A DNA stretch of 64,000 nucleotides from Candidatus Marithrix sp. (GCA_016744775.1 JADGDS010000001.1:853508-917507); one strand, 5' to 3'. Numbered from the stretch's first letter, positions 4,498 through 44,256 are shown. Made by a program: numbers and translations. Notes: generated from the sequence alone by a model not told the origin.

Positions 4498-5749
4498 TAG
4501 CGATTGGCAAACTTGGTGCAAGGCTACAGAATCACCCCTCTACATATTGTTAGATTCATTAAATACACAAGGTTTAAATATCGCACTAGAAGCCGCTAAT
4601 TTTGAACAACCTAAGTTACAAACTTGGTTAAAAGAATTATTAGAAGGCAAACCAAATAAACTATTAAGCCAATTAAATTTGGCTTGGGAAAATGCCAAAA
4701 ATAAAGCTGAAATTGTAGCAAGACTATTGACAGCTTTAGAAAATTATAATTTTCAAGGAAATTTTCAAAAAATTTCTTTTATTAAATTTTCAACTTATCA
4801 TCAAGCATTAGCAATGGTAATATTAGGTGATGCACCTAAAAAAATAGAATTTGCCATACAAAACTGGCTAGAAAAACAAGCCAAAATCGACCAAACCACA
4901 CCAGTATTAGACACAATCCACGCCTTAAAACACCGCCTAAATCGCGCTGTCTCAATTTATCAACCCAAGCATCCAGATTTAGGAAAAACCGTACATAATT
5001 GGTCAAAAGTACTATTACAAGAAAACCTTCAAGATTCTGAAAACATAGAAAATTTATGGCAAATACTAGAACGCTCACGAATAGGATTAGCCGGTTTAAC
5101 AATGAAATTGCCCGATAATTGGGATATAAATTTGGGTAAGACCTTATGGTATGGCTTAAGAAAAAGTATAGATGAACTTGGAGGTAATAATCCACCCTCA
5201 GAAAATGAAGCTTGGCCACTTTTACAAATATGGCTATCTCAAATTTCTGAATGGATGTCATATAAAACACCCACAATTGATACCTGTAAACAACACCTAC
5301 AAGCAAAACAAGCCTTATTACAACCATTTTTTGACCCAATACGGCAACGACTACGAATATTATGGCTAGATCAAACAGGCTTATCCTTAAAAGACCTACC
5401 AGACAATTGTGCTAAACAAGAACTTTGGCTAGAAAAAAGCAAAGATAGCGTAATAAATCAATGGACTATAAATTTTGAACAACACAAACGTAATACTGGA
5501 GGAATAAGCGGCAACAATCCAAACTGGGAAAAAGTCATGCAAACAGAACCAGTGCAAAAATTAGCCGACACACTAAAACAATGGGCAGCGCAATTAGAAC
5601 AAATAACCATAATATTTCCAGCCCCATTAGCACAATTACCTTGGGAAATCTTGCCACAACTAGAAAATATCCTAGTGCGAGAAATTAACTTAGCACATTG
5701 GTTGAAATCCACCCTAACCCCCCTTTACGAAAGGGGGGATTTTGGGTAA
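4391..5749 (+). pseudogene. CHAT protein, central helical region (frame 2)
   Basis: Middle part of the split CHAT gene, about 440 codons. It is tryptophan- and leucine-rich and alpha-helical in character, with repeated W-x(n)-W spacing, but no clear TPR consensus. Towards the end it enters the start of the CHAT fold (ITIIFPAPLAQLPWEILPQL around residues 410-430), the strand that precedes the catalytic histidine. The frame then ends in STLTPLYERGDFG because a 40-base palindromic repeat sits in the gene at 5705-5743. Codons before about 4400 in this frame are probably not translated from their own start, since the frame is a continuation of the preceding piece. Confidence 0.6.
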
Positions 5750-6441
5750 CATCCGATCCACAAGGGCAAGCACAATGTATGGTAAAAGAAGCGCGATGGG
5801 TAGCAAAACAACATAACACCCAACTAGAAAACCCATGCCCATCAGTATTTGACGCACTACACCACCTAGCCAATAAAAAACAAGCCCACCTATGTATGCA
5901 CGGAAACTATGATCGCAAAAACCCCATAGCCAGCGGCTTACAACTACAAGGAAAAACAGATACACAACCAGCAATAAAATTACCACTATGGACATGTACC
6001 CAACTACCATCAACACTAGACATAATAATCTTATCAGCCTGTGAATCGAACCTAACTGGACAACAAACAGAAGGCTTACTAACACCAATAGGAATTGGAC
6101 CAAGTTTAGCAGCAGCCGGCGTAAAAACCGTAGTAGGAACCCTATGGTCATGTAATGGACTAGCAGCCCTATGTTTTAACTATTATTTTTATAAAATTGC
6201 CCAACAAAATCCACAAATGCCGTGGCATATTGTAGCGGCAAATGCGCGTAAAGCCTTAAAACAAATGGGGCAAGAAGACTTAGAAAACATAGCAACAGAA
6301 TTCAATTTAGACGATAAAAATCCATGCTATGAATTGCTAGATCAACTTGCATCAACCGCATTATTTATACCGCCATTTGAAGACTTTTCATATTGGGCAT
6401 GTTTTTCAGTATTAGGCAATGTACAACGACAACAAAACTAA
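5698..6441 (+). pseudogene. CHAT domain (caspase-like peptidase), C-terminal fragment with catalytic dyad
   Basis: The C-terminal CHAT (caspase HetF associated with TPRs) domain. The histidine motif is LCMHGNYD and the cysteine motif is IILSACESNLTG, followed by LAAAGVKTVVGTLW, the standard order and spacing of a CHAT cysteine peptidase. Both catalytic residues are kept. The domain is joined in a different frame to its upstream part through a palindromic repeat inserted at 5705-5743. Translation initiation at 5698 would begin inside that repeat, so expression as a free protease domain is doubtful. The stop overlaps by four bases the stop of the small leftward gene at 6438. In characterised systems CHAT proteases cleave partner proteins after activation; no such partner can be named here. 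Confidence 0.8.
5705..5743. repeat. C/G-run palindrome inserted in the CHAT gene
   Basis: The sequence AATCCACCCTAACCCCCC, a short loop and AAAGGGGGGATTTT form a hairpin of the same family as those at 34939-35032 and 47969-48000 (CCCCCTAACCCCC cores). Here it lies within coding sequence and coincides exactly with a switch of reading frame from frame 2 to frame 1. Insertion of this element, or slippage in its homopolymer runs, is therefore the likely cause of the second break in the CHAT gene. Confidence 0.7.
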
Positions 6442-17416: not shown

Positions 17417-18031
17417 ATGAAAAACACTTTAAAAATTGAAAATTTACAATGTATCCGCGATGATAGAATTTTATTTGAAAATTTAAATTTCTCTATCTCA
17501 AATGGGCAATTATTACAAATTGAAGGTAATAATGGTTGTGGTAAAACCAGCTTATTGCGTATTTTATGCGGTATAAGTTTATCTGCTGATGGTTTAGTTT
17601 TATGGAATGAGAAAAATATTCAAGAAAATAAATCTACTTTCTATAGCAACTTACTTTATATTGGACATAATAATGGCGTAAAAAGAGATTTAACACCCTT
17701 AGAAAATTTAGCAATAGCACGCGCCTTGGCTAGCAATCCAAGCTCTATCGAATTAGAAGAAGCACTTGATAAAGTAGGCTTATATGGATTTGAAGACGTA
17801 GCCACAGGAACATTATCAGCCGGGCAACAGCGTAGGGTTGCCCTAGCGCGTTTATTCATCAATAAAGCAGCTTTATGGATACTTGACGAACCCTTTACTG
17901 CGCTCGATAAAACTGCGGTAGCAGACTTAGAAAAACTATTAGATGAACATGCACAACAAGGCGGTATGGCAATTCTAACCTCACATCATCATATTAAATG
18001 TCAATATTTGAATTCTCTTCATTTGGGCTAA
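17417..18031 (+). CDS. ccmA: Heme exporter ATP-binding protein CcmA (orphan)
   Basis: The ATPase subunit of the CcmABCD machinery of system I cytochrome c maturation, which releases holo-CcmE. It has 204 residues, the normal length. Walker A is GNNGCGKTSLL, the signature LSAGQQRRVALARLF and Walker B LWILDEPFTALD; the region IGHNNGVKRDLTPLENL is characteristic of CcmA. In most gammaproteobacteria ccmA is followed directly by ccmB. Here a MITE-like repeat and recB follow instead, so the rest of the operon must lie elsewhere or was displaced. Confidence 0.88.
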   Translation: MKNTLKIENLQCIRDDRILFENLNFSISNGQLLQIEGNNGCGKTSLLRILCGISLSADGLVLWNEKNIQENKSTFYSNLLYIGHNNGVKRDLTPLENLAIARALASNPSSIELEEALDKVGLYGFEDVATGTLSAGQQRRVALARLFINKAALWILDEPFTALDKTAVADLEKLLDEHAQQGGMAILTSHHHIKCQYLNSLHLG

Positions 18032-18140: not shown

Positions 18141-21100
18141 ATGAAAAATACCACCATAGAAAAACTAGAACCACTAACAATCCCCTTAGAAGGCATTAAA
18201 CTAATCGAAGCCAGTGCTGGCACTGGCAAAACTTATACTATTACTACTTTAGTCTTGCGTCTGATTCTTGAAAAGCGTTTGACTATTAATAAAATTTTAG
18301 TTGTTACTTTTACTGAAGCCGCTACTGAAGAATTACGTAATCGTATTCGTAGTCGTTTGCGTGAAGCCCTTCAGGCTTTTGAAAACGCTGATACTGATGA
18401 TGAAGTTTTAGCCGAATTGATTCATAAATTTTCTGCTTATAAAGATGAGGCAATTTTTCGTTTAACTAATGCTTTACGTGGTTTTGATGAAGCCGCAATT
18501 TTTACTATTCATAGTTTTTGTCGGCGAATGTTACAAGATCATGCCTTTGAAAGTGGTGTCTTATTTGAAACTGAATTGATTGGTGATCAATCACCATTAT
18601 TAGGTGAAATTGTAGAAGATTTTTGGCGACAAAATTTTTATCACGCATCAGGTTTATTTATTACTTATGCACAACAAAATAAATATAAAAACCCTAACAG
18701 CCTATTAAAAATAATAAATTATGGTCAATATCTTGAACAACCCTTTTTAAATAAAATTCCAAGCTTAGAAACAATTAATTCATCAGAATCACAAGAAGCC
18801 GCTTTTTATAAAGCCTTTAAAAACGTCAAACAACTATGGCTAGCTTCTGCTAAACAAGAAGTAGAACAATTATTAATCAATGATAAAAATTTAAAGCGAA
18901 ACAAATATTCACTGAAATATATACCATCTTGGTGTCAAAAATTAGATGAATATCTAACAGCGCGATCAATATCTATTAGTTTACCAGATACATTTATTCG
19001 ATTTACTCCTAGTGAAATTGCTCAAGCTGTCAAAAAAAATAGCAATCCACCTCAACATCAATTTTTTGATTTATGTCAACAATTATATGATAGGCATCAA
19101 GAATTATCTTCTCATTTTGAACAACGTCTAGTTGCCTTAAAATTAAAACTATTTGTAGCCGCTGAAAAAGCTTTAACACGTAAAAAATATCAATTTCATC
19201 TACAATCTTTCGATGATTTATTAATAAACCTCTACAAAGCATTAAAAAAACCTAATGGTAATCATTTAACTAGCCTAATTCATAATAAATTTCAAGCGGC
19301 TTTAATTGATGAATTCCAAGATACTGATCCTGTGCAATATGAAATATTCAAGACAGTATTTGGTAGCGATAATCGTATTTTATTTCTAATTGGAGATCCA
19401 AAACAGGCTATTTATAGTTTTCGTGGTGCGGATATTTTTACTTACATGTCAGCGGCTAATGATAAGCAAACGCGCCGCTATACCTTGGCTACAAATTGGC
19501 GTTCCCAAGCTGATTTGATTGATGCAGTCAATCAAGTTTTTAAAAAAAATCCGCAAGCATTTATATTTAAAGACATACCCTTTCAACCAGTGCAAGCACC
19601 TGAACGTAAACGTGATGCGCCTCATCTAAAAATCGAAAATCAAAGTTTACCACCATTACAACTATGGTTTGTTTCCAGAAATGAGGCTGGTTGTCAGCCA
19701 AATAAATTGATAAATAAGGCTTGGGGTAATACACAAATCCCAATTTCAGTTGCCAATGAAATTGCTCGTTTACTAATATTAGGCGAACAAGAACAAGCTA
19801 TGATAGGCAAGAAAGCCTTGCGTGCCGGAGATATTGCGGTATTAGTTCGTACCAATAAGCAAGCACGACATATGCAACAAGTATTAACCGAGTTACATAT
19901 TCCAAGTGTATTATATAGTCGCGATAATTTATTTACTTCAGATGAAATCATAGAAATAGAACGAATATTACAAGCAATTGCTGATCCGAGTAATGAAAAT
20001 TTAATCAAAGCGGCTTTGACTACAGATATTTTAGGAGTTTCTGGCAATGAATTGTATCAATTGATGAATGATGATAGAGCGTGGCAACAATATTTAAGTC
20101 GATTTCAAGATTATAATTATCAGTGGCAAAATATTGGATTCATTCAAATGTACCATAACCTTTTATTAAAGGAACAAGTACAAACACGCTTATTACATTA
20201 TCCAGATGGAGAAAGACGTTTAACCAATATATTACATCTTGCTGAAATTTTACAGCAACTTAGCATCAAGCAACAACTAAGTATGGGAGGAGTTTGTCAA
20301 TGGTTATCACAACAGCGTCAACAACCAGATATTAATAATGAAGAACAACAATTACGTTTAGAAAGTGACGAAAAACGAGTTAAAATTGTTACAATTCACA
20401 AAAGCAAAGGCTTAGAATATCCAATAGTATTTTGTCCATTTGTGTGGGATGGATATTTGCATCATAGCAAAGATGAACAATTTATTTTTCATGATAAAAA
20501 TCACGAATTAACCTTAGACTTAGGATCAAAACTACAAGAAAAGCATCGTCAACAAGCTTTAGAAGAAGAAAGAGCAGAAAATTTACGTCTATTTTATGTA
20601 GCAGTAACTCGTGCCAAACATCGTTGTTATTTAGTCTGGGGAGCATTTAAAGATGCAGGTATTTCAGCACTAGCCCATTTATTACATCCAGATATTGACG
20701 TAGAAAAAGTAGATGACAATATTCTATGGGAACAACTAAAAAGCAATGATAAATTAGAAGTATCACATTTACCATTAGACGTTCCACCAATATCAGCACC
20801 AGCACCAGAATTTGACATATTAAAAAAGCGTAGCTTTTCAGGCAAAATCAATAAGGAATGGAAAGTCTCTAGTTTCAGCTCATTATCAAACAAGCCTCAT
20901 TCTGCTACAAAACTAGATTATGACTTAATTGCTGATAAAACACACATATTCAACTTTCCACGTGGAGCAAGAGCAGGGCAATTTATGCACAGCCTGTTTG
21001 AAAAACTAGATTTTCAAGCACCTAGCGAAACCCTAATTAACACTCAACTAAACAACTTTGCTTATGATGCCGAACAATGGCAACCAACAATTACAAACTT

Positions 21101-21647
21101 AATAGACAATGTAATAAACACACCACTAACACCAGATAATGATTTAACACTATCAAAAATAAGCCGCGACAAACGACTAAATGAACTAGAATTTTTCTAC
21201 CCTATATTTCACCTAAACGATCAAAATTTACGTGCCATATTTAATAAATATGGTAAAAATGTGCATAGCGACTTCAAACCAGCACGTGGATTTATGAAAG
21301 GTTATATTGACATGATATTTGAATACCAAGGGCGATACTACCTAATAGACTACAAATCGCACATGCTAGGCAACTACCACCAAACAGCATTAAACAAAAT
21401 AATAGCAAGAGAAAACTACATCCTCCAATACCACATATACACAATAGCACTGCACCGCTACCTCTCAACTCGCCTAGCAAACTACAACTATGAACAACAT
21501 TTTGGAGGAGTATATTACTTATTTTTACGCGGAATGACACCAGAGACGGGGGCAGATTTTGGGGTATATCGAGACATGCCAGATTTGGGGCTTATTGATG
21601 AACTGTCGGTTTATCTTGGTGGAAAAAATTTGCATAACAAATTATAA
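18141..21647 (+). CDS. recB: Exodeoxyribonuclease V subunit beta (RecB)
   Basis: The 3'-5' helicase and nuclease subunit of RecBCD, for double-strand break repair and degradation of foreign linear DNA. The 1168 residues match the family length. Motif I is ASAGTGKTYT (25-34), motif II IDEFQDTDPVQ, motif III GDPKQAIYSFRGADI, motif V HKSKGLEYPIVFCPF, motif VI RLFYVAVTRAKHR. The C-terminal nuclease domain shows HSLFEKLDF, GFMKGYIDMIF and YYLIDYKSH, with the catalytic D and D-x-K. No recC or recD lies next to it. Its last 462 bases recur almost unchanged at 24164-24625, and diverged tails recur twice more, so the 3' end is a site of repeated rearrangement. Confidence 0.96.
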   Translation: MKNTTIEKLEPLTIPLEGIKLIEASAGTGKTYTITTLVLRLILEKRLTINKILVVTFTEAATEELRNRIRSRLREALQAFENADTDDEVLAELIHKFSAYKDEAIFRLTNALRGFDEAAIFTIHSFCRRMLQDHAFESGVLFETELIGDQSPLLGEIVEDFWRQNFYHASGLFITYAQQNKYKNPNSLLKIINYGQYLEQPFLNKIPSLETINSSESQEAAFYKAFKNVKQLWLASAKQEVEQLLINDKNLKRNKYSLKYIPSWCQKLDEYLTARSISISLPDTFIRFTPSEIAQAVKKNSNPPQHQFFDLCQQLYDRHQELSSHFEQRLVALKLKLFVAAEKALTRKKYQFHLQSFDDLLINLYKALKKPNGNHLTSLIHNKFQAALIDEFQDTDPVQYEIFKTVFGSDNRILFLIGDPKQAIYSFRGADIFTYMSAANDKQTRRYTLATNWRSQADLIDAVNQVFKKNPQAFIFKDIPFQPVQAPERKRDAPHLKIENQSLPPLQLWFVSRNEAGCQPNKLINKAWGNTQIPISVANEIARLLILGEQEQAMIGKKALRAGDIAVLVRTNKQARHMQQVLTELHIPSVLYSRDNLFTSDEIIEIERILQAIADPSNENLIKAALTTDILGVSGNELYQLMNDDRAWQQYLSRFQDYNYQWQNIGFIQMYHNLLLKEQVQTRLLHYPDGERRLTNILHLAEILQQLSIKQQLSMGGVCQWLSQQRQQPDINNEEQQLRLESDEKRVKIVTIHKSKGLEYPIVFCPFVWDGYLHHSKDEQFIFHDKNHELTLDLGSKLQEKHRQQALEEERAENLRLFYVAVTRAKHRCYLVWGAFKDAGISALAHLLHPDIDVEKVDDNILWEQLKSNDKLEVSHLPLDVPPISAPAPEFDILKKRSFSGKINKEWKVSSFSSLSNKPHSATKLDYDLIADKTHIFNFPRGARAGQFMHSLFEKLDFQAPSETLINTQLNNFAYDAEQWQPTITNLIDNVINTPLTPDNDLTLSKISRDKRLNELEFFYPIFHLNDQNLRAIFNKYGKNVHSDFKPARGFMKGYIDMIFEYQGRYYLIDYKSHMLGNYHQTALNKIIARENYILQYHIYTIALHRYLSTRLANYNYEQHFGGVYYLFLRGMTPETGADFGVYRDMPDLGLIDELSVYLGGKNLHNKL

Positions 21648-21907
21648 TAATTTATTTGCTATTCCTAATTTGTAGTAAATTTTTATTGAATTAGTTGTTA
21701 CTATTTAACCATTTAAAGCATTTGTTACAAAAATTATAATACTGTTTTTAAATGAAAGTATAAATATCACTTGATTATTATAAATAATATAATTAAAATA
21801 TAATATAACTATAAAATTTTAGCCAATCGCTTATATCAATTTATAGTTAGCTAATGTTTAATAATATTATTCATATATAAGATGACACTATATAGGAGCT
21901 TTATAAA
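21648..21907. other. AT-rich intergenic region upstream of the PKD protein gene
   Basis: These 260 bases are over 80 percent A+T with no open frame. They are likely to hold the promoter of the gene at 21908, which has the Shine-Dalgarno TATAGGAGCT. I see no repeat or RNA structure in it. It marks the left edge of cargo inserted after recB. Confidence 0.5.
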
Positions 21908-23812
21908 ATGAAGAAAACTAGCATTTTAATTATCATGCAGTTCTTGATAATGTGTTCAACACAACTACAAGCAGGATCTGCTGTGTTTGAAAATTTTAAA
22001 AATGGCATTGGTGGTTTTACTGAAAATAAGTTTTTGTCCGTTACTAACGAACAATTATTATTTAGTGGTGATGGAAATAAAGGTGGTGATATAATCCCGT
22101 GGATGGGAGGTTCAAAATCAGGAAAATTTAATCCTAGCCCACAAAATTCTAACTATTTTGAAAACTTTATTGTATCAAGCGATATGATATGGAAAGGTGG
22201 AGACCAAAATGCTACTTATGGCTTATCAACTTGTATTCAGCAAAACAGCGAAGGAAAGCTTGATTACCTCTCATTTTTTATAGCAGGCACTGGAAATGAT
22301 ACAGCTTATAAAATAAGTATGACAAAAAACAATCAATATAAAATACTTGTTGATTGGACAAAATCATCTACGATTAAATCGGGTAGCATTAACACATTAT
22401 CTATACACAAAATAAATAATAATTTTTCTTTTGAGATTAATGATAAAAAAGTAGAACAATTATCTATAAATGGATGTTCAGATGGTGCTATAGGTGTTGG
22501 TGTTTCTACAGAAGGTGTATTTGCCTTTGATAATTTCAATATTAAACCAATAATCATCGAGGATTTTAATATTGATGCTGGTGGATTTTCAGGAAGTAAA
22601 TACTTTGTTCCATCTAATGGAAAATTAATTTTTCAGGGTGATGGTTCAGATGGCACTAGGTTAACAGCATGGAATGGTGGCTATAATGCTAGTGGATTTA
22701 GTCCTAAAATTGAACATTCTAACTATTTTAGTGATTTTGTTTTCTCAATAGATACGCTTTGGATGGGGGGTGATGATAATTATAATTATGGTGTTTATGT
22801 ATGTGCCAGAGAGGATTCTGATAAGTTAAAAGGAATTGGATTTTATATTGTTGGATCAGGTTCTTATCTAATAACCGTGGATGGAAATAAATTCGGTGAT
22901 TGGACACAATCTAATAGCATTAAAGTAGGACAAATAAATACTTTACAAATCGTCAAGATAAATAATAATTTATTATTTGTGATAAACAATCAAACAGTGA
23001 AAGAATTAGATTTAACAAATTCTTGTGGTGGTAGTATTGCTTTTGAATCAGCTAATGTAGTTAATGTATCATATGATAACTTCCTTTTAATAGATTATAC
23101 ACTACAACCATATACTCCTCCAATTCCTGATGTTCAACCAGAAGAAAATAAACCACCAATAGCTAAATTTACTGTGACTCCTTCTTCAGGAAATGCACCC
23201 TTAACAGTTAGTTTGGATGCTAGTGCCTCCAGTGATCCTGATGGATCAATTAGTAGTTATAATTGGTCATCATCTGATGGGCAAACAGCTACAGGTGTAA
23301 CTGCTAGTATGATCTTTAATAATGCTGGTTCTTACAATATTACCTTGACTGTTAAAGATAATGGAGGAAAAACTAATACAGTTACACAGACTGTAACTGT
23401 AAATCCAACACCAACACCAACATCGTGTAATGAAAATTTATGCCTCAATTTTATTGGTTTAAAAAATTTCTATGCTGTTGGTGATATAGTAAAACTGGAT
23501 TTAGCACAAAAGGTAGATAGAGATAGATTTTCACGAGTTGATTTATGGTTAGCAATTGAAATGCCTAATAATGGAATTCTATATAAAACTGATAAAGCTT
23601 TTTTACCATTTAGTGGTGAAGCTCAAGCATTTAAAACATCTATAGAAAGGATGGATATAACTGATAATATACTTAATATTGAAATACCACCGGGTATTGG
23701 TGGAACTTATCAATTCCATGCAGTATATGTAAAAGCTGGAGGCAAAAATCCAGTTAAAAATGGTTTGGATATTATTAAGAAAATTAATAAAACTGTGACA
23801 CTAGCAAAGTAG
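21908..23812 (+). CDS. Secreted protein with two LamG-like repeats and a PKD domain
   Basis: A 634-residue exported protein. A signal peptide (MKKTSILIIMQFLIMCSTQLQAG) ends near residue 23. Two homologous beta-rich units follow (about 25-215 and 216-395; each has F-N-I-x-G-F-opening, a SNYF..F-S-D-W-GGD motif and WT-S-x-IK-G-IN-L), of the LamG/DUF1080 kind. A PKD domain spans about 416-500 (AKFTVTPSSGNAPLTV, SSDPDGSISSYNW, TVKDNGG), then a PTPTPT linker and a C-terminal domain of about 125 residues (VDLWLAIEMPNNG, IEIPPGIGGTYQFHAVYV) that I know from large sulfur bacteria. A role in adhesion or binding of extracellular glycans is inferred. It lies between recB and a recB relic, as cargo. Confidence 0.85.
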   Translation: MKKTSILIIMQFLIMCSTQLQAGSAVFENFKNGIGGFTENKFLSVTNEQLLFSGDGNKGGDIIPWMGGSKSGKFNPSPQNSNYFENFIVSSDMIWKGGDQNATYGLSTCIQQNSEGKLDYLSFFIAGTGNDTAYKISMTKNNQYKILVDWTKSSTIKSGSINTLSIHKINNNFSFEINDKKVEQLSINGCSDGAIGVGVSTEGVFAFDNFNIKPIIIEDFNIDAGGFSGSKYFVPSNGKLIFQGDGSDGTRLTAWNGGYNASGFSPKIEHSNYFSDFVFSIDTLWMGGDDNYNYGVYVCAREDSDKLKGIGFYIVGSGSYLITVDGNKFGDWTQSNSIKVGQINTLQIVKINNNLLFVINNQTVKELDLTNSCGGSIAFESANVVNVSYDNFLLIDYTLQPYTPPIPDVQPEENKPPIAKFTVTPSSGNAPLTVSLDASASSDPDGSISSYNWSSSDGQTATGVTASMIFNNAGSYNITLTVKDNGGKTNTVTQTVTVNPTPTPTSCNENLCLNFIGLKNFYAVGDIVKLDLAQKVDRDRFSRVDLWLAIEMPNNGILYKTDKAFLPFSGEAQAFKTSIERMDITDNILNIEIPPGIGGTYQFHAVYVKAGGKNPVKNGLDIIKKINKTVTLAK

Positions 23813-23939
23813 TAAAACTAATAACTTCAAGCTTTTTTCACTAAGCTTGAAGGTTTGAGCCGTTTCTAATATAAACGGTCTATCATCTCTAATTATAAAG
23901 GTGTGACATCAATATGAAATTTAGTTTATGACAGCGGAT

Positions 23940-24627
23940 ACCGATTACAAGTATCACACTTATCATTATAAATTCCGTCAATATCAGCACCAACACCATA
24001 ATTTTAGATATTAATAAAGCGTCGCTTTTCAGGCTAAATCAATAAATAATGGAAATTATCTAGTTTTAGTTCATTATCAAATCAGCATAAAAAGCATATT
24101 TTCAAGAACCTAGCGAAAAAGTAATCAGCACTTAATTTAGCAATTTTGGTTATGAAGTAGAACAATAAGCCGCGACAAACGACTAAATGAACTAGAATTT
24201 TTCTACCCTATATTTCACCTAAACGATCAAAATTTACGTGCCATATTTAATAAATATGGTAAAAATGTGCATAGCGACTTCAAACCAGCACGTGGATTTA
24301 TGAAAGGTTATATTGACATGATATTTGAATACCAAGGGCGATACTACCTAATAGACTACAAATCGCACATGCTAGGCAACTACCACCAAACAGCATTAAA
24401 CAAAATAATAGCAAGAGAAAACTACATCCTCCAATACCACATATACACAATAGCACTGCACCGCTACCTCTCAACTCGCCTAGCAAACTACAACTATGAA
24501 CAACATTTTGGAGGAGTATATTACTTATTTTTACGCGGAATGACACCAGAGACGGGGGCATATTTTGGGGTATATCGAGACATGCCAGACTGGGGGCTTA
24601 TTGATGAACTGTCGGTTTATCTTGGAG
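23940..24627 (+). pseudogene. recB relic B: diverged segment plus near-identical 462-bp tail
   Basis: From about 23950 to 24163 the sequence follows recB 20780-21160 with many changes and deletions (shared CAATATCAGCACCA and GCTTTTCAGGC stretches). From 24164 to 24625 it matches recB 21158-21619 with only about three differences. The open part from 24267 encodes the nuclease-domain end (GFMKGYIDMIF, YYLIDYKSH) with D-to-Y and L-to-W changes. The sharp change from diverged to almost identical suggests gene conversion of an older duplicate by the intact gene, or a second copying event. It ends GGR-stop where relic sequence of another gene begins. Confidence 0.85.
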
Positions 24628-24629
24628 GG

Positions 24630-24712
24630 AGGTGATTTAATGTCTAAATCATTCATGTGTGAGTTAGTGAATTTTGGCGTAAACCAGCTAGTTCTGTCAT
24701 AGCTTCTATTCG
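24630..24712 (-). pseudogene. Relic of the 3' end of the HNH-partner gene
   Basis: On the minus strand this reads RIEAMTELAGLRQNSLTH and stops. It matches RIEAMTELANLRQTSLTQ near the end of the 133-residue protein at 26326-26727. The neighbouring bases AGGTGATTTAATG correspond to AGGAGATTTAATG at 26339. It abuts recB tail B exactly as complete genes of the HNH module abut other recB tails, so it is the remains of an earlier copy of that module. Confidence 0.7.
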
Positions 24713-24735
24713 TTGTACTAACAGAGAAGAGAAGA

Positions 24736-24807
24736 GATTGCATTTTATCAAGGATAAAAGCCCTTAAATTACAATAATATCCCTGCTAAAATACAATCCC
24801 TGTAGTT
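24736..24807. mobile_element. MITE-like repeat, AACTACAGGGATTGCAT family, copy 2 (left arm worn)
   Basis: The right arm, CCCTGCTAAAATACAATCCC with TGTAGTT, is intact; the left arm is reduced to GATTGCATTTTATCAAGGAT. It lies about 50 bases before the recB 5' relic, as copy 1 lies before intact recB. Confidence 0.7.
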
Positions 24808-24858
24808 TTTAAACGGCTAAACCAGCACAAAAATTCAGACAAAAGTTTACCAACCAAA

Positions 24859-25060
24859 ATGAAAAACACCACCATAGAAAAACTAGAACTCCTAACAATC
24901 CCCTTACAAGACATAAACCTAATAGAAACTAGCGCAGGCACCGGCAAGACTTATACAATTACAACTCTAGTCTTACGCCTAATTCTGGAAAAGCGTTTGA
25001 CTATTCGTAGTCGTTTGCGTGAGGTTCTTCAGGCTTTTCAAAAAGCTGATACTTCATTTA
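24859..25060 (+). pseudogene. recB relic C: 5' end with internal deletion
   Basis: It begins MKNTTIEKLELLTIPL like intact recB, including the preceding ACCAACCAAAATG, and keeps the Walker A motif TSAGTGKTYT. Twenty codons (recB residues NKILVVTFTEAATEELRNRI) are missing in frame; a TATT microhomology lies at both edges of the gap. After AFQKADT the similarity ends and the frame runs into unrelated sequence to 25146. The rest of this copy is gone except for a 97-base tail at 25783. A hypothetical gene occupies the space between. Confidence 0.85.
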
Positions 25061-25163
25061 AAAATCGCAATAAGGGCATTTACGCACATACCAAGATTTT
25101 ATGGTTTTATTATGTTATGATAAAATTAACTAATTTAGCTAATTAAATAGTTAAACGGAGGCA

Positions 25164-25757
25164 ATGATGACACAACACATAGAAATACAAAATCCAGAAC
25201 AATACACTAAAGTAGATTACCAAAACTTTGAATATCTTTTGTTCGCAGATGATACGGATAAAGAAAAACTTGAAGAAATATGTATGACTTTAGCGCATTT
25301 GCCCACTGTTGAAGCAGCGGCTTTATTAGCAAAATTTAATGAATATATCCGTGCAAAAGAAGTTGAATGGCTAACATGTGCAATTGAGGAAAATCAGTAT
25401 CTTCATTTAACACCATGCAATGAACAAGAAGAACGAGATATTCTAGCCTTGAAAGTCATACAAGAAATGGAAGATCATATTATAGACTTGGAAATGGAAT
25501 ATGATAAAGAAGATTTAGGCTGGCAAAAAAATCAAATCAAATTGGAGGCAATCAAATCATTAGTGGCAGAAGATGATGCCAGTATATATTATGATAATGA
25601 AATGCCTTGTCAAAAAAATAGAATGATTGAATTACGTAATGAGATCGAAACCCAAGAAAAAATTATACAAGCGATCAAGCAATCAATCCAAACAGAACGC
25701 TATAAAAAAGTAAATAGTATGACTATGCAACATTATCATTTTGATGGAGAAGAATAA
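25164..25757 (+). CDS. Hypothetical acidic protein
   Basis: A 197-residue, strongly acidic, soluble protein, not recognised. It has a good Shine-Dalgarno (ACGGAGGCA) before ATGATG; the second ATG, six bases from the ribosome site, may be the true start. The first 130 residues look helical (EKLEEICMTLAHLPTVEAAALLAKF), and the last part carries a predicted coiled coil (RNEIETQEKIIQAIKQSIQ). No membrane segment or signal peptide is seen. It is bracketed by a recB 5' relic on the left and a recB 3' tail on the right, so it is cargo in the accretion zone. Confidence 0.65.
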   Translation: MMTQHIEIQNPEQYTKVDYQNFEYLLFADDTDKEKLEEICMTLAHLPTVEAAALLAKFNEYIRAKEVEWLTCAIEENQYLHLTPCNEQEERDILALKVIQEMEDHIIDLEMEYDKEDLGWQKNQIKLEAIKSLVAEDDASIYYDNEMPCQKNRMIELRNEIETQEKIIQAIKQSIQTERYKKVNSMTMQHYHFDGEE

Positions 25758-25782
25758 AAGATCAATAACAAATGATTATGCC

Positions 25783-25879
25783 TCATACACCAAAATCAGG
25801 AACAGATTTTGGTGTATATCGAGACATGCCAGACTTGGAACTTGTTGATGAACTTTGTTTGTATATTAGTGTGAATTAA
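25783..25879 (+). pseudogene. recB tail C (97-base 3' end)
   Basis: An in-frame remnant reading HTPKSGTDFGVYRDMPDLEL then VDELCLYISVN and stop, which corresponds to the last 35 residues of RecB ([20 protein letters not shown] and so on). At DNA level it is closer to tail D at 26837 than to the intact gene, so C and D share a donor that was a different recB allele. It ends 20 bases before the stop of the convergent HNH gene. Confidence 0.85.
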
Positions 25880-25898
25880 AAATACGCATATAATATAA

Positions 25899-26333
25899 TT
25901 AACTTTGATTAGAAGGAGGATGTTCATTCGCCATATAAAGTACCCGTCGTAGATTAATTAATCCTTCTCGATTTAAGTGTAAAGTTTCTACAGTAACACG
26001 TCCAATCATTGTGATGCCAATGATGAGAGTAAAATCTTCATTCCAGTTAAAATTATCAGACCATTTATGTTGTCTTGGATGATACAATGGTGCAATTTCT
26101 CCCGTGACTGGATCTATTGCTTCTGTTTTGTTGTATTTATGATTATTACAGCCTTGGCAAGCTAATGCCAAGTTATCTAAAGAAGTGTCTCCACCTTTAC
26201 TCTGCGGAATAATATGTTCAATTGAAAAAGCTTGTGTTGCAAAACGTGCTTGGCTACGACAATATTCACAACTTCCTTGTGCGCGTTCTACTACATTGTT
26301 TTTCAGTGTAGTATTTATTTGTCTCTTATACAT
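25899..26333 (-). CDS. HNH endonuclease
   Basis: A 144-residue HNH nuclease. The zinc site is formed by CEYCRS at residues 19-22 and CQGCNNHKYN, with the catalytic core IEHIIPQSKGGD and LDNLALAC, so both CxxC pairs and the histidine are present. The C-terminal half (HPRQHKWSDNFNW, LNREGLINLRR) is typical of the short solitary HNH proteins widespread in cyanobacteria and sulfur bacteria. It overlaps the upstream 133-residue gene by eight bases, so both are co-translated. The pair sits between two recB tails (C and D). A homing-like or defence function is possible; biochemical function is unproven. Confidence 0.9.
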   Translation of the reverse strand: MYKRQINTTLKNNVVERAQGSCEYCRSQARFATQAFSIEHIIPQSKGGDTSLDNLALACQGCNNHKYNKTEAIDPVTGEIAPLYHPRQHKWSDNFNWNEDFTLIIGITMIGRVTVETLHLNREGLINLRRVLYMANEHPPSNQS

Positions 26334-26727
26334 AAGAAGGAGATTTAATGCCTAATTGATTCATCAATTGAGTTAGTGAAGTTTGGCGTAAATTAGCTAA
26401 TTCTGTCATAGCTTCAATTCGTTTAGCATCAAATTGTTCTACTTTTTCAGTTAAATCTAACAATTCTTGGCATTCTTCAGAACTTAAAGTCTCAGCTTGA
26501 CGCTTAGCAATTAAATTATCATAAGCCGCTTGAATATCATACGGAAGCTTTTGATTAATTCGAAGTAAAAGTTCAGAATCACGACGTGGTATAGAAGGTG
26601 CTTTACGTTGTGCTTGTATATGATGCAAAGACAAGGTAAACCTTTCTAAATCAGACGAATTGAATTGCTTAACCACGTTCAGCAATTCATCAAAATTGAT
26701 GTGTGCTTTAACTTGAACTGTAGGCAT
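26326..26727 (-). CDS. Small helical partner of the HNH endonuclease
   Basis: A 133-residue helical protein that begins MPTVQVKAHINFDELLNVVK and contains the repeated acidic-hydrophobic pattern SSEECQELLDLTEKVEQFDAK followed by RIEAMTELANLRQTSL. I know it only as a gene regularly found just upstream of short HNH endonucleases in cyanobacteria and sulfur bacteria. It starts after a fair ribosome site and overlaps the nuclease gene by eight bases. An accessory, regulatory or immunity role for the nuclease is inferred from the coupling. A relic of its 3' end lies at 24630-24712. Confidence 0.75.
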   Translation of the reverse strand: MPTVQVKAHINFDELLNVVKQFNSSDLERFTLSLHHIQAQRKAPSIPRRDSELLLRINQKLPYDIQAAYDNLIAKRQAETLSSEECQELLDLTEKVEQFDAKRIEAMTELANLRQTSLTQLMNQLGIKSPSYV

Positions 26728-26836
26728 CTGAAATTATCCTATTTAAAATAAATTATATATTTTAGTATATATCAAATCTGGAACTAATTGATCAACTAAA
26801 AAAATAGGCTTTTTATTCAGTAAAATTTCATCATCA

Positions 26837-26968
26837 TATTACTTATTTTTAAGAGGATATACACCAAAATCAGGAACAGATTTTGGTGTATATCGAGACA
26901 TGCCAGATTTGGGGCTTGTTGATGAACTATCAATATATTTGAATAGCCCAACAATAATAGCTAATTAA
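26837..26968 (+). pseudogene. recB tail D (132-base 3' end)
   Basis: An uninterrupted frame encodes YYLFLRGYTPKSGTDFGVYR, then DMPDLGLVDELSIYLNSPTI and a stop. This equals the C terminus of RecB ([20 protein letters not shown]) with conservative changes, and its codon choice differs at many third positions. It is therefore a tail from a functional but different recB allele, not a decayed copy of the neighbour. Its stop codon overlaps that of the convergent SH3 protein gene. Confidence 0.85.
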
Positions 26969-27417
26969 TGAATATAATCGCTACTAGCATAACCTATTTG
27001 ACCATTATTCAATAAGACTCTTGCCCAATAATTTGTTTGATTTAAAATACGAACTGCTGATCCTCTACTGGCTCTACCAACAACCCGTGATCTTGCAGTT
27101 GGGCGACTACGAATGTTTAGTTTACCAGATCTTGTACGTACAATAGCGCATGAACCAGAACTAATATAATCTCGACTAGCATAGCCAATTCGACCATTAT
27201 TAAGTTTAACTTTTACCCAAAAACTTCTATTATTAATAATTCTCAACGCTGATCCTTTATGAACCTTAGCAATCACTCTTGATCTTTCTGATGGGCGACT
27301 TCTAATATTTAATGAACTAAAACCAGTATCTACAATTCCGCATCTAGCAAAAACTAAATTAGGTATTAAAGCTGTCACAAAAGACAGAAATACAATTGTC
27401 GTCAAAATTTTCTTCAT
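26965..27417 (-). CDS. Secreted protein with two bacterial SH3 domains
   Basis: A 150-residue protein with a signal peptide (MKKILTTIVFLSFVTALIPNLVFA) and two tandem SH3_3 domains (about 26-85 and 88-150). Each has the LNIRSRPS/T-x-RSRV motif, a KG/RGSALRI-type turn and a final GYAS-DYI. These domains usually bind peptidoglycan peptides, so a periplasmic wall-binding role is likely. The gene has a clear Shine-Dalgarno (AAAGGAGA) and lies alone; its 3' end abuts recB tail D, so it marks the right boundary of the accretion zone. Confidence 0.88.
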   Translation of the reverse strand: MKKILTTIVFLSFVTALIPNLVFARCGIVDTGFSSLNIRSRPSERSRVIAKVHKGSALRIINNRSFWVKVKLNNGRIGYASRDYISSGSCAIVRTRSGKLNIRSRPTARSRVVGRASRGSAVRILNQTNYWARVLLNNGQIGYASSDYIH

Positions 27418-27522
27418 AAAAAAATCTCCTTTATATAGTAATGATTAAATTTTATTATAACATATTTTAATTATTTAGTTATACTGTGTCTTTTCAAGTT
27501 GATAATAGGTATATTGAATTCT

Positions 27523-28020
27523 ATGCAAGTTAAAATGCAAACTACTTTAGGTGATATTATTATTGAACTTAATTCTGAAAAAGCACCTAAAACCGTCGAT
27601 AATTTTGTAAATTACGTCAAAGATGGATTTTATGATAACACTATATTTCATCGTGTTATTAATGGTTTTATGGTTCAAGGCGGTGGTATGGAATCAGGAA
27701 TGAAAGAAAAAGCCACTAAAGCACCAATTGAAAATGAGGCTGATAATGGTTTAAGTAATAAAACTGGTACTCTTGCTATGGCTAGAACTTCTGATCCACA
27801 TTCTGCCACAGCCCAGTTTTTCATTAATGTTTCTGATAATGCTTTTCTCGATTTTAGTGGCAAGAATCCTCAAGGTTGGGGTTATTGTGTATTTGGAGAA
27901 GTTGTTGAAGGTATGGATGTTGTTAATAAAATTAAAGAAGCTCAAACCACCACTTGCAGCCCACATTCAGATGTGCCTTGTGATGACATAAAAATTGAAA
28001 AAGCTGAATTAGTCAGCTAA
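27523..28020 (+). CDS. ppiB: Peptidyl-prolyl cis-trans isomerase B (cyclophilin)
   Basis: A cytoplasmic cyclophilin; catalyses proline isomerisation. The frame extends upstream to 27499 through TTG, but the conserved start is the ATG at 27523 ([18 protein letters not shown]), giving 165 residues. The active-site motif [15 protein letters not shown] and later [19 protein letters not shown] and WGYCVFGEV are complete. No signal peptide, so PpiB and not PpiA. It is followed by a short palindrome and lpxH, the gene order seen in many gammaproteobacteria. Confidence 0.95.
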
Positions 28021-39514: not shown

Positions 39515-39639
39515 AGAATATAATTAATGTCGTTATAGAAAGTATATTATATAGGGTTTTAATTGGCTGGTTCAAATATGATCGCTATCATTTTAAGTTC
39601 TTAGACATTTACCTTATAATTTCCATAGATTTATAGATA

Positions 39640-41685
39640 TTAGTTAATAACCCCGTGATAACGCCCAAACCAATAGGCGATAAGAAAATCAATTCCTGAT
39701 AAGCCTGTTCTTATGGGGCCTTTATGTAAATTAAAAGGATTTTCTTTCCAGTAATAACTAGATGCGGCGGACTCAAATAAAGGATAAGCGCGTAAACTTT
39801 GTACACGATCAGCAGCTTTTGCGCGTCTGTATTTCCAGATCATTTCTGGATAAGGTGAGGCTGTGTGTTTAGGATTGATTGTCCAATCAATTTCATATTT
39901 TCCACGTATAGTTGGTATTTCGCGCAAACGCCATAAGGCTTGTTCAATCCAGAAAGGACGATTCGGTTTATTACGTAATGTACCAGAAATAAGTTTAAAT
40001 AGCCCCATACGATGTGTCAACATATGTTCATCTGCATCTTCAAGAAACTTACGGTAATCATTGGCTTCTTCTGACTGTTCACCAGCTGTATCAACAAAGC
40101 TCAAGTAATTGAGATAGAATGACCAAATCTTCAGATGATTTCCCGACCAATCACTGACCACACCCGCAATATTGGTTAAATTCCATTCTGTTTTCTTGGA
40201 GTAGATTTTGAGACGTCTGTAGCATTCTCTTATATCTTTATTCCACTCCAGAATATATTGATAATTGGGTTTATCTCGCAGCATATAATACAATACCAGA
40301 TTCAACTGCATGGAACGTGGCCATTTCCTGACTTGATAAACCCTACTGAAACCGCAGTTCGTTACAAATAAGGATTTATGCTTATAACGTAAAGCAATCA
40401 GGGCTTCAATCATGCGTGTACGAATATCACCATAGCGTTTTGTAATGTCAGCATATTCAGGGCTTGATAGAGTACGCAAGGCTTTTGTTGACCAATAAGC
40501 TGCAATCACAATGCCCCTGCTCATATCATTATTGCCACCACGCTTGTATTCTACTGCGCTAAACTCGGAATATTGCATCCTACCCCGTCGCCATTCGGGA
40601 TTGTTATTGGCACGACCACGATCCAGCATGATGGTACGTGCGAAGGTATCAGCAAGCTTATCATTAGGATTTGTACGCACAATATCAATCGCATTTATAA
40701 CAGCATTAAGCGATTTTAGCATCTTGTTTAAGGCTGAAGGGTCTCGTGTGACGAGATATTTTTTTGCCATTGCAGACACATAAACGCCTGTCCATATTAA
40801 AGCATCACCATCATGTCGATAGCGTTTTTCCCACTCATCCCATTGTGAAACAAAGCCCAATTCATTGATTTGCAATTTTGAAACTTGTTCATCAAAAAAT
40901 GCCGCTTTAGCTTTTAGATTATAACGATAAGCACTGTTTCTGAGTTTGGCTTCTGCAATGCTGATTGGATCTATGATTTTTTGAATCACGCGCAGACGAT
41001 TTGGATTTTGTTGATAATAGTTGTAATCAGTGGGATCGAAAACCCAATAATGAATACTATTCTTAAATTCTTGCCGCTGAGTATAGGGGGCGATTTGAGG
41101 CAGTGCATGAAACTCAGCTTGAGAATAATTTGGAAGCACTGTTGTTATGAATCCCAAGGAAGATGCGCTGGGATTATCTGTTGTGGGAAGATCAATACGC
41201 TGGTTTGTCCATAGGGGTTGTATCTGCAATTTACCTATTTTATGCCATGATTCGTAAAATTTATAGTATTTTCCTTGGTAATAGGCTGAATATTCTCCAC
41301 TATATTCATTTGCACTATCTTTAGGTATGAGGGTTTCTATGATTCTTATCGGAGTGTTTTTATTAAAATCAGCCTCACGGATAAAGCCATCGGCATGTTT
41401 AATATATCCGACTACATCAAGATCATAAGTCATCATAATGCTGCCATCAGAATAGAGTTCTACTGTGCCTTCAATTGCGCTTGAAATATGGTCTGTATAA
41501 TCTTTCAACTTGACCAGCTTATAATGTCCATTTTGCCAACGCACTTCGGCTTTGCCGGTATAAGTACCGGCATAATCATTACCTGAGAAGCTGTAAATAC
41601 CTTCAATAGAAGTTGCAAAAACTATGCTATTTATGCATAACAACAAGCAGAGGCTCAATCCCTGAAAAGGGTACAAATTAATCAT
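39640..41685 (-). CDS. Large secreted protein, paralogue 1 (no LamG domain)
   Basis: A 681-residue exported protein with a signal peptide ending near NSIVFATS. The N-terminal region has GIYSFSGNDYAGTYTGKAEV, a small beta domain, followed by a long helical part (about 210-680) with WVFDPTDYNYYQQNPNRL, DEWEKRYRHDGDALIWTGVY, and repeated Trp/Tyr motifs. This resembles an alpha/alpha barrel of the glycan-enzyme type (DGDALIWTG, TKALRTL), but the family is not recognised. It is a tandem duplicate of the next gene (about 80 percent identical protein over 640 residues) and lacks only its N-terminal LamG-like domain. Confidence 0.8.
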   Translation of the reverse strand: MINLYPFQGLSLCLLLCINSIVFATSIEGIYSFSGNDYAGTYTGKAEVRWQNGHYKLVKLKDYTDHISSAIEGTVELYSDGSIMMTYDLDVVGYIKHADGFIREADFNKNTPIRIIETLIPKDSANEYSGEYSAYYQGKYYKFYESWHKIGKLQIQPLWTNQRIDLPTTDNPSASSLGFITTVLPNYSQAEFHALPQIAPYTQRQEFKNSIHYWVFDPTDYNYYQQNPNRLRVIQKIIDPISIAEAKLRNSAYRYNLKAKAAFFDEQVSKLQINELGFVSQWDEWEKRYRHDGDALIWTGVYVSAMAKKYLVTRDPSALNKMLKSLNAVINAIDIVRTNPNDKLADTFARTIMLDRGRANNNPEWRRGRMQYSEFSAVEYKRGGNNDMSRGIVIAAYWSTKALRTLSSPEYADITKRYGDIRTRMIEALIALRYKHKSLFVTNCGFSRVYQVRKWPRSMQLNLVLYYMLRDKPNYQYILEWNKDIRECYRRLKIYSKKTEWNLTNIAGVVSDWSGNHLKIWSFYLNYLSFVDTAGEQSEEANDYRKFLEDADEHMLTHRMGLFKLISGTLRNKPNRPFWIEQALWRLREIPTIRGKYEIDWTINPKHTASPYPEMIWKYRRAKAADRVQSLRAYPLFESAASSYYWKENPFNLHKGPIRTGLSGIDFLIAYWFGRYHGVIN

Positions 41686-41700
41686 AATACTATGCCTTAT

Positions 41701-44256
41701 TTACATATCTTCCTTAATCACCCCATGGTAACGTCCAAACCAATAGGCTATAAGAAAATCAATTGCCGATAAGCCTGTTCTTATGGGGCCTTTATACAAA
41801 TTAAAAGGATTTTGTTTCCAGTAATAACTGGAAGCGGCGGATTCAAATAAAGGATAAGCCCGTAAACTTTGTACACGATCTTCAGGATTTTTACCTGTGT
41901 ATTTCCAGATTAGTTCTGGATAAGCTGAGGCTGTGTGTTTAGGATTGATCGTCCAATCTATTTCATATTGCCCACGTATAGTAGGTATTTCGCGCAAACG
42001 CCATACAGCTTGTTCAATCCAGAAAGGATGATTGGGTTGATGACGTAATGTACCGGAAATCAGTTTAAACAGCCCCATACGATGTGTCAACATGTGTTGA
42101 TCTGCATCTTGAAAAAACTTACGATAATCATTGGCTTCTTCTGACTGTTGTCCAGCAGCATCAACAAAGCCCAAATAATTGAGATAGAGTGACCAAATAC
42201 CCAGATGATTTGCTGACCAATCACTGACCACGCCCCCAATATTGCTGAAATTCAATTCTGTCTGCTCGGAATAGATTTTGATATTTCTGTAGCATTCCTT
42301 GATATCATCATTCCAATTAAGAATATGTTGATAATTGGGTTTATCCTGCACCAGATTATACAAGACCAGATTCAACTGCATGGAACGTGGCCATTTATAG
42401 AATTGATCAAGCTTACTTAAGCCGCAGTTATTAACAAATAAGGATTTATGCTGATTACGTAAAGCAATCAGAGCTTCAATCATGCGTGTACGAATATCAC
42501 CATACTGCTTTGTAATGTCAGCATATTGCTGGCTGGATAGACTACGCAAGGCTTTTGTTGACCAATAGGCTGCAATCATAATGCCCCTGTTCATATCAGG
42601 ATTGCCATCACGCTTGTATTCTACTGTGCTAAACTCGGAATATTGCATAGTACCCTGTCGCCATTCAGGATTGCTATTAGCACGACCACGATCTAGCATG
42701 ATGGTACGTGCGAAGGTTTCACCAAGATTGTCATTAGGATTTGTACGCACAATATCAATGGCATTGATAACAGCATTGAGTGATTTCAGCATTTTATTTA
42801 AGGCTGAAGAGTCTCGTGTGACTAGATATTTTTTTGCCATTGCAGACACATAAACACCTGTCCATAATAAAGAATCACCATCATGTAGATAGCGGTTTTC
42901 CCCGCTGTCCCATTTTGAAACAAAGCCCAATTCATTGATTTGCAATCTTGCAACTTCTTCATCAAAAAATGCGGCTTTAGCCTTTAGATTATAACGATAA
43001 GCACTGTTTCTGAGTTTAGCTTCTGTAAGGCTGATTGGATCTATTATTTTTTGAATAACGCGCAGACGGTTTGGATTTTGTTGATAATAGTTATAATCAG
43101 TAGGATCAAACACCCAATAATGAATACGATCTTTAAATTCTTGACGCTGGGTATAGGGTGCGATTTGAGGCAGTGCATGAAACTCAGATTCTTTATAGAA
43201 TGGAGACAGTTTTGTTATGGTTTCCAAGGATGATTGGCTGGCTGCTTTATCTGTTGTGGCAAGATCAATACGCTGGTTTGTCCATATGGGCTGTGCCTGC
43301 AATGTGCCTGTTTTACGCCATGATTCGGGAAAACTATAGCGTGTTCCTTGGTAAACCCCTGAATACTCGCCACTGTATTCATTTGCAGTATTGTTAGGTC
43401 TTAGGGTTTCTGTGATGCTAATTGGTGTGTTTTTATTAAAATCAGCCTCACGGATTAAGCCATCTATGTGTTTAATGTATCCAACCGTATCAAGATCATA
43501 ATTCATGCTAATACTGCCATCAGGATGAGCTTGTGCTGTGCCTTCAACTGCGCTTGAAATATGGTCTGTATAATCTTTCAACTTGACCAGCTTGTAATGA
43601 GCCTCTAGCCTACGTAATTCTGCTGTGCCACTATATTTGCCAGCATAATCATTACCAGAGAAGCTATAAATACCTTCAACAGAAGGAGCAAGACTTAAAC
43701 TATCAAGACGGGAATCTGATTGCCAGTTCATGACTCCAATCGCCCCTTTTGAGAAACTCTCATCATGAACTTCAAGTTTTAATTCACCATTCAGATAAAC
43801 CTTGATGTTAGAAGCAAAGGCATCAACGCTTAAATCGTACCATTGCCCATATTCAAGTGTAGTTGAACTTTCCGCAACTAGTGTCCAGTCATGATTGACT
43901 TTTCCAAGACCAATGATATTGCTTTCGGGCAGGATAAAGGCAACATAGCCACGCATATTGAAAGCCTCCTCAGTGGCATCAGTAATGCGAAACAAAATGC
44001 CCACAGCTTGACCAGCATTCACTTTAATACGCGCTGTATAATTAAAATCAGAAAAGTGGAGTTCAGTCAGTGCCTTATAGCCTAATACATTGGGTAGGAT
44101 AACTTGGCCATTTTCCCAGCTCCAGTTTCCATTATAAACTTGCCAATTGTGATTAAACGAAGCCTTATCAAAATTCTCATCAATACCTTTTGCAAAAGCT
44201 ATGGTAGTTATGCACAACAACAAGCACAAGTTCAATCCCTTCAGTAAACTAATCAT
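41701..44256 (-). CDS. Large secreted protein, paralogue 2 with N-terminal LamG/DUF1080-like domain
   Basis: An 851-residue exported protein. After the signal peptide (ends TIAFAKG) a LamG/DUF1080-like domain of about 170 residues is present (DENFDKASFNHNWQVYNGNW, WTLVAESSTTLEYGQWYDLS, GAIGVMNWQSDSRLDSL). The remaining 660 residues copy paralogue 1: GIYSFSGNDYAG, WVFDPTDYNYYQQNP, LHDGDSLLWTGVYVSAMA. The two stops and starts are 15 bases apart, a recent tandem duplication with later domain loss in paralogue 1. A substrate-binding or hydrolytic role on extracellular polymers is inferred from the LamG-like domain. Confidence 0.82.
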   Translation of the reverse strand: MISLLKGLNLCLLLCITTIAFAKGIDENFDKASFNHNWQVYNGNWSWENGQVILPNVLGYKALTELHFSDFNYTARIKVNAGQAVGILFRITDATEEAFNMRGYVAFILPESNIIGLGKVNHDWTLVAESSTTLEYGQWYDLSVDAFASNIKVYLNGELKLEVHDESFSKGAIGVMNWQSDSRLDSLSLAPSVEGIYSFSGNDYAGKYSGTAELRRLEAHYKLVKLKDYTDHISSAVEGTAQAHPDGSISMNYDLDTVGYIKHIDGLIREADFNKNTPISITETLRPNNTANEYSGEYSGVYQGTRYSFPESWRKTGTLQAQPIWTNQRIDLATTDKAASQSSLETITKLSPFYKESEFHALPQIAPYTQRQEFKDRIHYWVFDPTDYNYYQQNPNRLRVIQKIIDPISLTEAKLRNSAYRYNLKAKAAFFDEEVARLQINELGFVSKWDSGENRYLHDGDSLLWTGVYVSAMAKKYLVTRDSSALNKMLKSLNAVINAIDIVRTNPNDNLGETFARTIMLDRGRANSNPEWRQGTMQYSEFSTVEYKRDGNPDMNRGIMIAAYWSTKALRSLSSQQYADITKQYGDIRTRMIEALIALRNQHKSLFVNNCGLSKLDQFYKWPRSMQLNLVLYNLVQDKPNYQHILNWNDDIKECYRNIKIYSEQTELNFSNIGGVVSDWSANHLGIWSLYLNYLGFVDAAGQQSEEANDYRKFFQDADQHMLTHRMGLFKLISGTLRHQPNHPFWIEQAVWRLREIPTIRGQYEIDWTINPKHTASAYPELIWKYTGKNPEDRVQSLRAYPLFESAASSYYWKQNPFNLYKGPIRTGLSAIDFLIAYWFGRYHGVIKEDM

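Follow-up and report, generated by a model that had tools for sequence, protein, structure and literature searches.

recB fragments and cargo genes in Candidatus Marithrix, one instance of an arrangement found at many loci in two genomes of the genus

recB fragments and cargo downstream of the resident gene

We analyzed a stretch of 64,000 nucleotides from Candidatus Marithrix sp. (GCA_016744775.1, JADGDS010000001.1:853508-917507), hereafter the window, in which the gene recB is followed by further pieces of recB that alternate with unrelated genes, here called cargo. A sequence-only reading of the window had described recB (18141-21647) as intact and as followed by three further copies of its 3' end, named tails B, C, and D, and both points were borne out: recB encodes 1168 amino acids (aa), and all three tails were recovered when recB was matched against the window by BLAST, with significance taken from 100 mononucleotide shuffles of the region. 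Tail B (24161-24628) matches recB 21155-21622 at 98.9% (bit score 822), tail C (25787-25890) matches at 77%, or 84% over its first 68 bases (bit score 75), and tail D (26836-26931) matches at 85% (bit score 111), while the best of the 100 shuffles scored 42, so that these tails are real and beyond chance. The near-identity of tail B stands, with 5 mismatches over 468 bases instead of the roughly three over 462 counted earlier, and tails C and D are, as had been proposed, closer to each other (95.7% over 70 bases, 25785-25854 and 26859-26928) than to the resident gene. Both remain in frame up to a stop. All three tails had been placed within 20 bases of a convergent gene; this is so for tail C, which ends 20 bases from the convergent HNH gene, and for tail D, which runs into the end of the convergent SH3 gene, but after tail B there is no intact gene, only what is left of the HNH partner gene (24630-24714). 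Separately, tails C and D (25785-25817 and 26856-26894) carry a perfect 11-base inverted repeat, ACACCAAAATC / GATTTTGGTGT, with a 7-base loop, which the resident recB lacks.

The view that only 3' ends were duplicated had to be given up. Pieces from the middle of recB (psi1a and psi1b) and from its 5' end (psi2) are also present, so the fragments are not 3' ends alone, and the locus consists of the remains of several recB copies, beyond the tails. The left ends of tails B, C, and D fall at different recB positions (21155, 21537, and 21512, respectively), that of tail B being a joint between psi1b and recB 21155 with short microhomology, and the joints left by deletions within psi1 and psi2 show microhomology of 3 to 4 bases. 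A Pfam scan of the cargo proteins and a comparison of the fragment ends at the recB locus revealed no integrase or transposase and no cut site common to the fragments.

The comparison within the genus covers two genomes, the window genome (G000) and a congener (G001, 40 contigs). The congener recB (G001:C11:49325-52741) also sits amid recB fragments, but these lie upstream of the gene and comprise 5' pieces, a SnoaL-type cargo gene, a second recB copy in six pieces that are collinear in gene order (psiA2), two fragments of the 197-aa cargo gene of the window that flank an HNH pair, and a further 5' remnant. The congener recB itself stops early at a TAA (L037:19718), with the loss of about the last 16 residues. 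Of 20 recB loci belonging to other genera in the family, none has extra recB fragments; the closest relatives with a name are Candidatus Parabeggiatoa, Thioploca, and Beggiatoa. No conserved recB neighborhood was found in the family; the context of recB differs in each genus examined. As draft genomes may misjoin repeats, collapsed or chimeric assembly was considered as a source of the fragments, but the window is part of a 919-kb contig, its genome has a completeness of 98.4% and a contamination of 0.15%, the copies are no longer identical (77 to 99%), and a separately assembled second genome has a like structure, which leaves an assembly artifact extremely unlikely.

HNH pairs of one family are found beside recB in both genomes of the genus (window 25899-26727; congener L037:14710-15563), and in the window the C/D repeats enclose the pair, as would be expected if the HNH nuclease were homing, that is, cutting recB in other strains and being copied together with flanking recB sequence. 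The two HNH proteins, however, share only 44% identity and stand in opposite orientation. The window HNH gene is the sole member of its family found in its own genome; its closest relative found (69%) belongs to another genus and lies on a contig other than that of recB, as do the relatives in other genera, which give homing no support. The partner gene has a 90% match in the congener, elsewhere and without an HNH gene, and other fragment loci hold other cargo. We therefore consider homing by the HNH nuclease very unlikely. An inverted-repeat element of about 80 bases (24733-24810) is present in many copies, on both strands and in both genomes, one of them upstream of recB.

The features of the locus are listed in Table 1. 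Elsewhere in the window, three overlapping open reading frames (ORFs) in different frames (4081-6441) resemble a single broken gene, and two genes for large secreted proteins (681 and 851 aa) stand in tandem at 39629-43691, with 86.5% identity across 2 kb.

Table 1. Genes, recB fragments, and cargo at the recB locus of the window
Feature	Coordinates	Strand	
ccmA-like ABC gene, left flank	17417..18031	+	
Resident recB, intact, 1168 aa	18141..21647	+	
Cargo: secreted PKD-domain protein, 634 aa	21908..23812	+	
recB remnant psi1a (= recB 20753-20890, 85%), 5 stop codons	23944..24081	+	
recB remnant psi1b (= recB 21001-21078, 77%; 84-85% to congener recB)	24089..24166	+	
recB tail B (= recB 21155-21622, 98.9%), read as the newest duplication	24161..24628	+	
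Remnant of HNH partner gene 3' end (85% to 26338-26423)	24630..24714	-	
Copy of dispersed inverted-repeat element	24733..24810	.	
recB remnant psi2: upstream region and 5' end of recB, internal deletion of 56 bases	24814..25053	+	
Cargo: hypothetical gene, 197 aa	25164..25757	+	
recB tail C	25785..25879	+	
Cargo: HNH nuclease, 144 aa, weakly PtuB/IscB-HNH-like	25899..26333	-	
Cargo: partner gene of HNH nuclease, 133 aa	26326..26727	-	
recB tail D; 70-base direct repeat (95.7%) with C enclosing HNH pair	26836..26968	+	
SH3-domain protein gene, old right flank of tail D	26965..27417	-	
Right flank, conserved: peptidyl-prolyl isomerase gene, which also follows recB in the congener	27499..28020	+	

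The arrangement at other loci of the two genomes

We compared the whole 919-kb contig of the window genome, and likewise about 1.03 Mb of the congener, with itself and found many genes that have a broken second copy of one of their parts beyond a cargo. Loci were then counted at which a repeat of at least 50 bases and at least 80% identity, with a gap of 250 to 8000 bases, encloses at least one cargo ORF and involves an intact gene of at least 150 aa. With recB included, 19 such loci were found in 0.919 Mb of the window genome (20.7 per Mb) and 29 in 1.029 Mb of the congener (28.2 per Mb), whereas 0.344 Mb around recB of other genera contained none and 1.571 Mb of other bacteria contained 4 (exact tests, p about 1e-10 for 48 versus 4 and 8e-4 for 48 versus 0). 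Cutting both genomes into 20-kb pieces of the size of the controls changed the counts little, to 20 and 26 loci. Across the roughly 1.95 Mb compared, the two genomes thus have 46 loci of this pattern in addition to recB. The repeat pairs measure 50 to 1136 bases and are 80 to 99.9% identical, a range that includes the recB pairs of 468 and 70 bases, and 11 of the 19 loci in the window genome involve the 3' end of a gene. A second accretion zone, at C9:206485-214073 (L192:6485-14073), holds three tails of a 525-aa gene: a 938-base repeat at 99.9% identity is followed by a copy at 81%, and the intervening cargo comprises unnamed genes and a Septu PtuA-like ATPase. Examples of pairs with a repeat identity above 99%, read as fresh insertions, are C9:207136/211576 and C9:765277/769735. 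In the congener, mutS has an internally deleted, decayed second copy beyond a cargo (G001 C30:129139-129908 and 132925-135420).

Two of these loci could be compared with an empty site. A two-gene cargo at C9:186800-186885/188629-188714 lies between 86-base repeats that derive from the 3' end of a 512-aa gene, and the joined flanks correspond to an uninterrupted stretch of the congener (C11:10084-9070) with a single copy of the repeat. Conversely, a 257-base repeat surrounds cargo in the congener (C11:5094-5350/7842-8098) and is single in the window genome. This shows that cargo and flank duplication vary together between the two genomes at both loci.

Cargo classes were assigned by profile match only. 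On this basis, 7 of the 14 sites read in the window genome carry a recognized toxin-antitoxin or anti-phage gene, namely HEC-02A/B, AbiEi/AbiEii, PtuA, AbiLi, TacA with a GNAT acetyltransferase, HigB, and a PhdYeFM/PIN pair. At C9:186800/188629 the two cargo genes match the two genes of HEC-02, a candidate anti-phage system (E = 8e-85 and 5e-32). In a small control of 10 random genes of the contig, PADLOC at 1e-10 gave no match, and one gene was an RRXRR/HNH protein by Pfam. Neither a transposase nor an integrase was recognized among the cargo proteins scanned with Pfam, some of which remain unnamed, and no restriction-modification pair was found among the cargo proteins scanned.

These observations bear on the earlier proposal that segments insert repeatedly at the recB terminus with a replacement tail and so keep the gene whole. 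The proposal is borne out in part. Repeated cargo insertion, with a second copy of the gene end left behind and the gene kept whole, is supported by the two empty sites elsewhere and by the like architecture at recB, but recB as the special target of a dedicated system is not, given the 46 other loci, the 20 fragment-free recB loci of other genera, the upstream debris of the congener, and the varying left ends of the tails. A dedicated mobile element, site-specific for the recB 3' end and supplying a new tail in the manner of integrase islands at gene 3' ends, would account for tails that finish at or near the stop codon, for the intact recB, and for cargo that varies among the copies. It would not account for 5' and middle fragments or for the like pattern at unrelated genes, and the arrangement differs from such islands in its variable tail starts, its many unrelated target genes, and the lack of a recognized integrase or common core site among the sequences compared, so that we regard an element of this kind as highly unlikely. 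Site-specific insertion at recB was rejected on the grounds that integrase, core site, and specificity were all lacking. Variable repeat length, unrelated targets, and the absence of a recognized recombinase among the scanned proteins fit an accident driven by homology better than a dedicated element.

Two apparent recB allele lineages and the origin of the copies

Over 147 coding bases, psi2 is 93.9% identical to the congener recB and 85.7% identical to the resident recB, and 16 of its 21 differences from the latter lie at third codon positions (codon-position counts for the recB fragments are from ungapped blocks, with two or three blocks that cross a small indel left out). In a small tree with six outgroups, psi2 groups with the congener recB and a congener remnant, apart from the resident recB (Shimodaira-Hasegawa [SH] support 0.905, bootstrap 80). 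The resident recB alone differs at 10 sites, and at 5 of the 6 that can be polarized the outgroup has the state of the resident. Two recB allele lineages thus seem to have met at the window locus, although we grade the evidence for them as moderate because the psi2 stretch is short. Resident and congener recB differ by a synonymous divergence (dS) of 0.41 and a nonsynonymous divergence (dN) of 0.081, and the ccmA-like gene to the left (17417-18031) has a dS of 0.586 to the congener where typical neighbors have about 0.25, a more than twofold excess, as though it lay within an imported block. To the left of recB, synteny with the congener ends before the ccmA-like gene is reached; in the congener the ccmA block is inverted and about 35 kb away. 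On the right, the isomerase and lpxH-like genes downstream of recB are common to both genomes. The psi2 grouping, together with the raised dS of recB and of the ccmA-like gene, argues against simple duplication within the genome and for recombination with another lineage.

Such a duplication, by one or more unequal exchanges within the genome and followed by decay and invasion by unrelated genes, had been offered as the simpler origin of the copies, and several features favor it. The pieces derive from every part of recB, psiA2 of the congener decays collinearly, the deletion joints of psi1 and psi2 show 3- to 4-base microhomology, and pieces occur in both genomes, so that some copies may predate their split. 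In its simplest form, a single ancestral tandem duplication with decay, it is insufficient, as psi2 is closer to the congener gene than to the resident one, with 10 sites at which only the resident departs from both. Further points against tandem duplication are that the cargo within the repeats is not itself duplicated and that cargo gain and flank duplication covary between the genomes at two other loci. We consider it rather unlikely.

Our results lead us to favor, as a probable though far from certain explanation, that the extra recB pieces are the remains of repeated cargo insertions with a copied flank, and that recB is one instance of a process that operates genome-wide. Each insertion would set cargo beside recB and leave adjoining recB sequence on both sides as a long flank duplication of variable length, after which one recB copy would be kept functional and the other would decay through small internal deletions and point mutations. 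The newest pair would be the resident recB tail and tail B (468 bases, 99%), around the PKD gene and older debris; the C/D pair (70 bases, 95.7%), around the HNH pair, would be older, and psi1 and psi2 older still. We infer that DNA of another strain, consisting of a gene end and cargo, recombines by homology at one end and is joined imprecisely at the other, so that the gene end of the recipient would come to lie past the cargo. The route may be homology-facilitated illegitimate recombination of the transformation type or single-crossover integration. The insert ends carry the shared repeat, and the microhomology of 3 to 4 bases at joints lies within the recB debris and possibly reflects later deletions. 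Homologues of ComEC and DprA are present; both proteins are widespread, and their presence proves nothing. Flanking direct repeats would be expected to recombine out, and toxin-antitoxin cargo would penalize such loss, which may explain how often cargo of this class is found.

An origin of one copy outside the genome is suggested at mutS of the congener, where 15 of 17 differences between the copies are at third positions and 15 of 16 changed codons are silent; the copies differ as alleles do, and one of them most simply came from another strain. For psi2 of recB, 19 of 26 differences fall at third positions, which likewise resembles allelic divergence.

Several observations weigh against repeated insertion with a copied flank. 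Neither genome of the genus offers an empty site for recB itself. That tail B, at 99%, stands beside pieces of 77 to 85% identity has to be explained by a recent event of its own or, alternatively, by gene conversion of the tail by the resident recB. The differences of psi1a from recB number 12, 1, and 8 by codon position, with five stops, a pattern of neutral decay. When 39 repeat pairs that are at least 90% identical are pooled, the fraction of differences at third positions is 0.556, where a copy decaying next to a constrained gene should give 0.5 (p 0.043); being barely above 0.5, this value suggests that many copies may have diverged after duplication, and the allelic signature is clear at some loci and not general. 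As to the survey, its control stretches were centered on recB and were not random, and its definition also catches some tandem gene families that are not insertions.

Relation to known systems and meaning for the genus

The closest parallel to the arrangement as a whole is the insertion of restriction-modification genes in Helicobacter pylori with a long, variable target duplication of about 100 bases, inferred by comparison of related genomes and credited to Nobusato 2000 (Gene 259:99) and Furuta 2010 (NAR 38:2428), as described in two later papers (PMC3031569, PMC3874152). By those accounts, the two have in common selfish or defense cargo, no recognized transposase, and variable direct repeats derived from the target, seen by comparing two genomes, and at C9:186800/188629 and congener C11:5094/7842 the relative likewise lacks the insert and has a single copy of the repeat. 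They differ, on the same accounts, in that the recognized cargo here is toxin-antitoxin or anti-phage and not restriction-modification, that the repeats run from 50 to more than 1000 bases and are often gene ends, that there are about 20 to 28 loci per Mb, and that decayed second copies persist. The pattern works like insertion with long target duplication, with other cargo and at high density, and not like a system specific to recB.

For accretion at one gene, the closest account is that of type VI secretion system (T6SS), contact-dependent growth inhibition (CDI), and Rhs loci, where sequential displacement gives arrays of orphan immunity genes or orphan 3' ends and for which homology-facilitated illegitimate recombination has been proposed as the mechanism of T6SS/Rhs displacement (PMC5361080). 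There, as here, serial insertion beside a conserved gene moves old 3' ends downstream; unlike in those loci, the displaced pieces here are recB nuclease-domain tails, apparently functionless, and not toxin tips with immunity genes. Merodiploids of Streptococcus pneumoniae, formed by natural transformation with duplications of about 100 to 900 kb through pairing at repeats (PMC3784515), likewise illustrate that recombination with incoming DNA can yield two copies of a region per chromosome, whereas the duplications described here are gene-sized or smaller and enclose foreign cargo.

As a tentative proposal that we would not yet call probable, gain and turnover of toxin-antitoxin and anti-phage genes in the genus may be due largely to a process without a transposase, whereby the cargo arrives linked to the neighboring core gene, its end or the whole of it, from another strain, and recB, mutS, and other genes would keep decayed second alleles as a fossil record. 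This bears on how chromosomal defense and toxin-antitoxin genes move without an integrase or transposase nearby. In this genus such moves look frequent and leave countable scars, and the extent to which the duplicated ends have decayed allows the moves to be ordered in time. This would make the process testable, in the homologous end, in the size of the imported piece, and in the protection of flanking repeats by addictive cargo.

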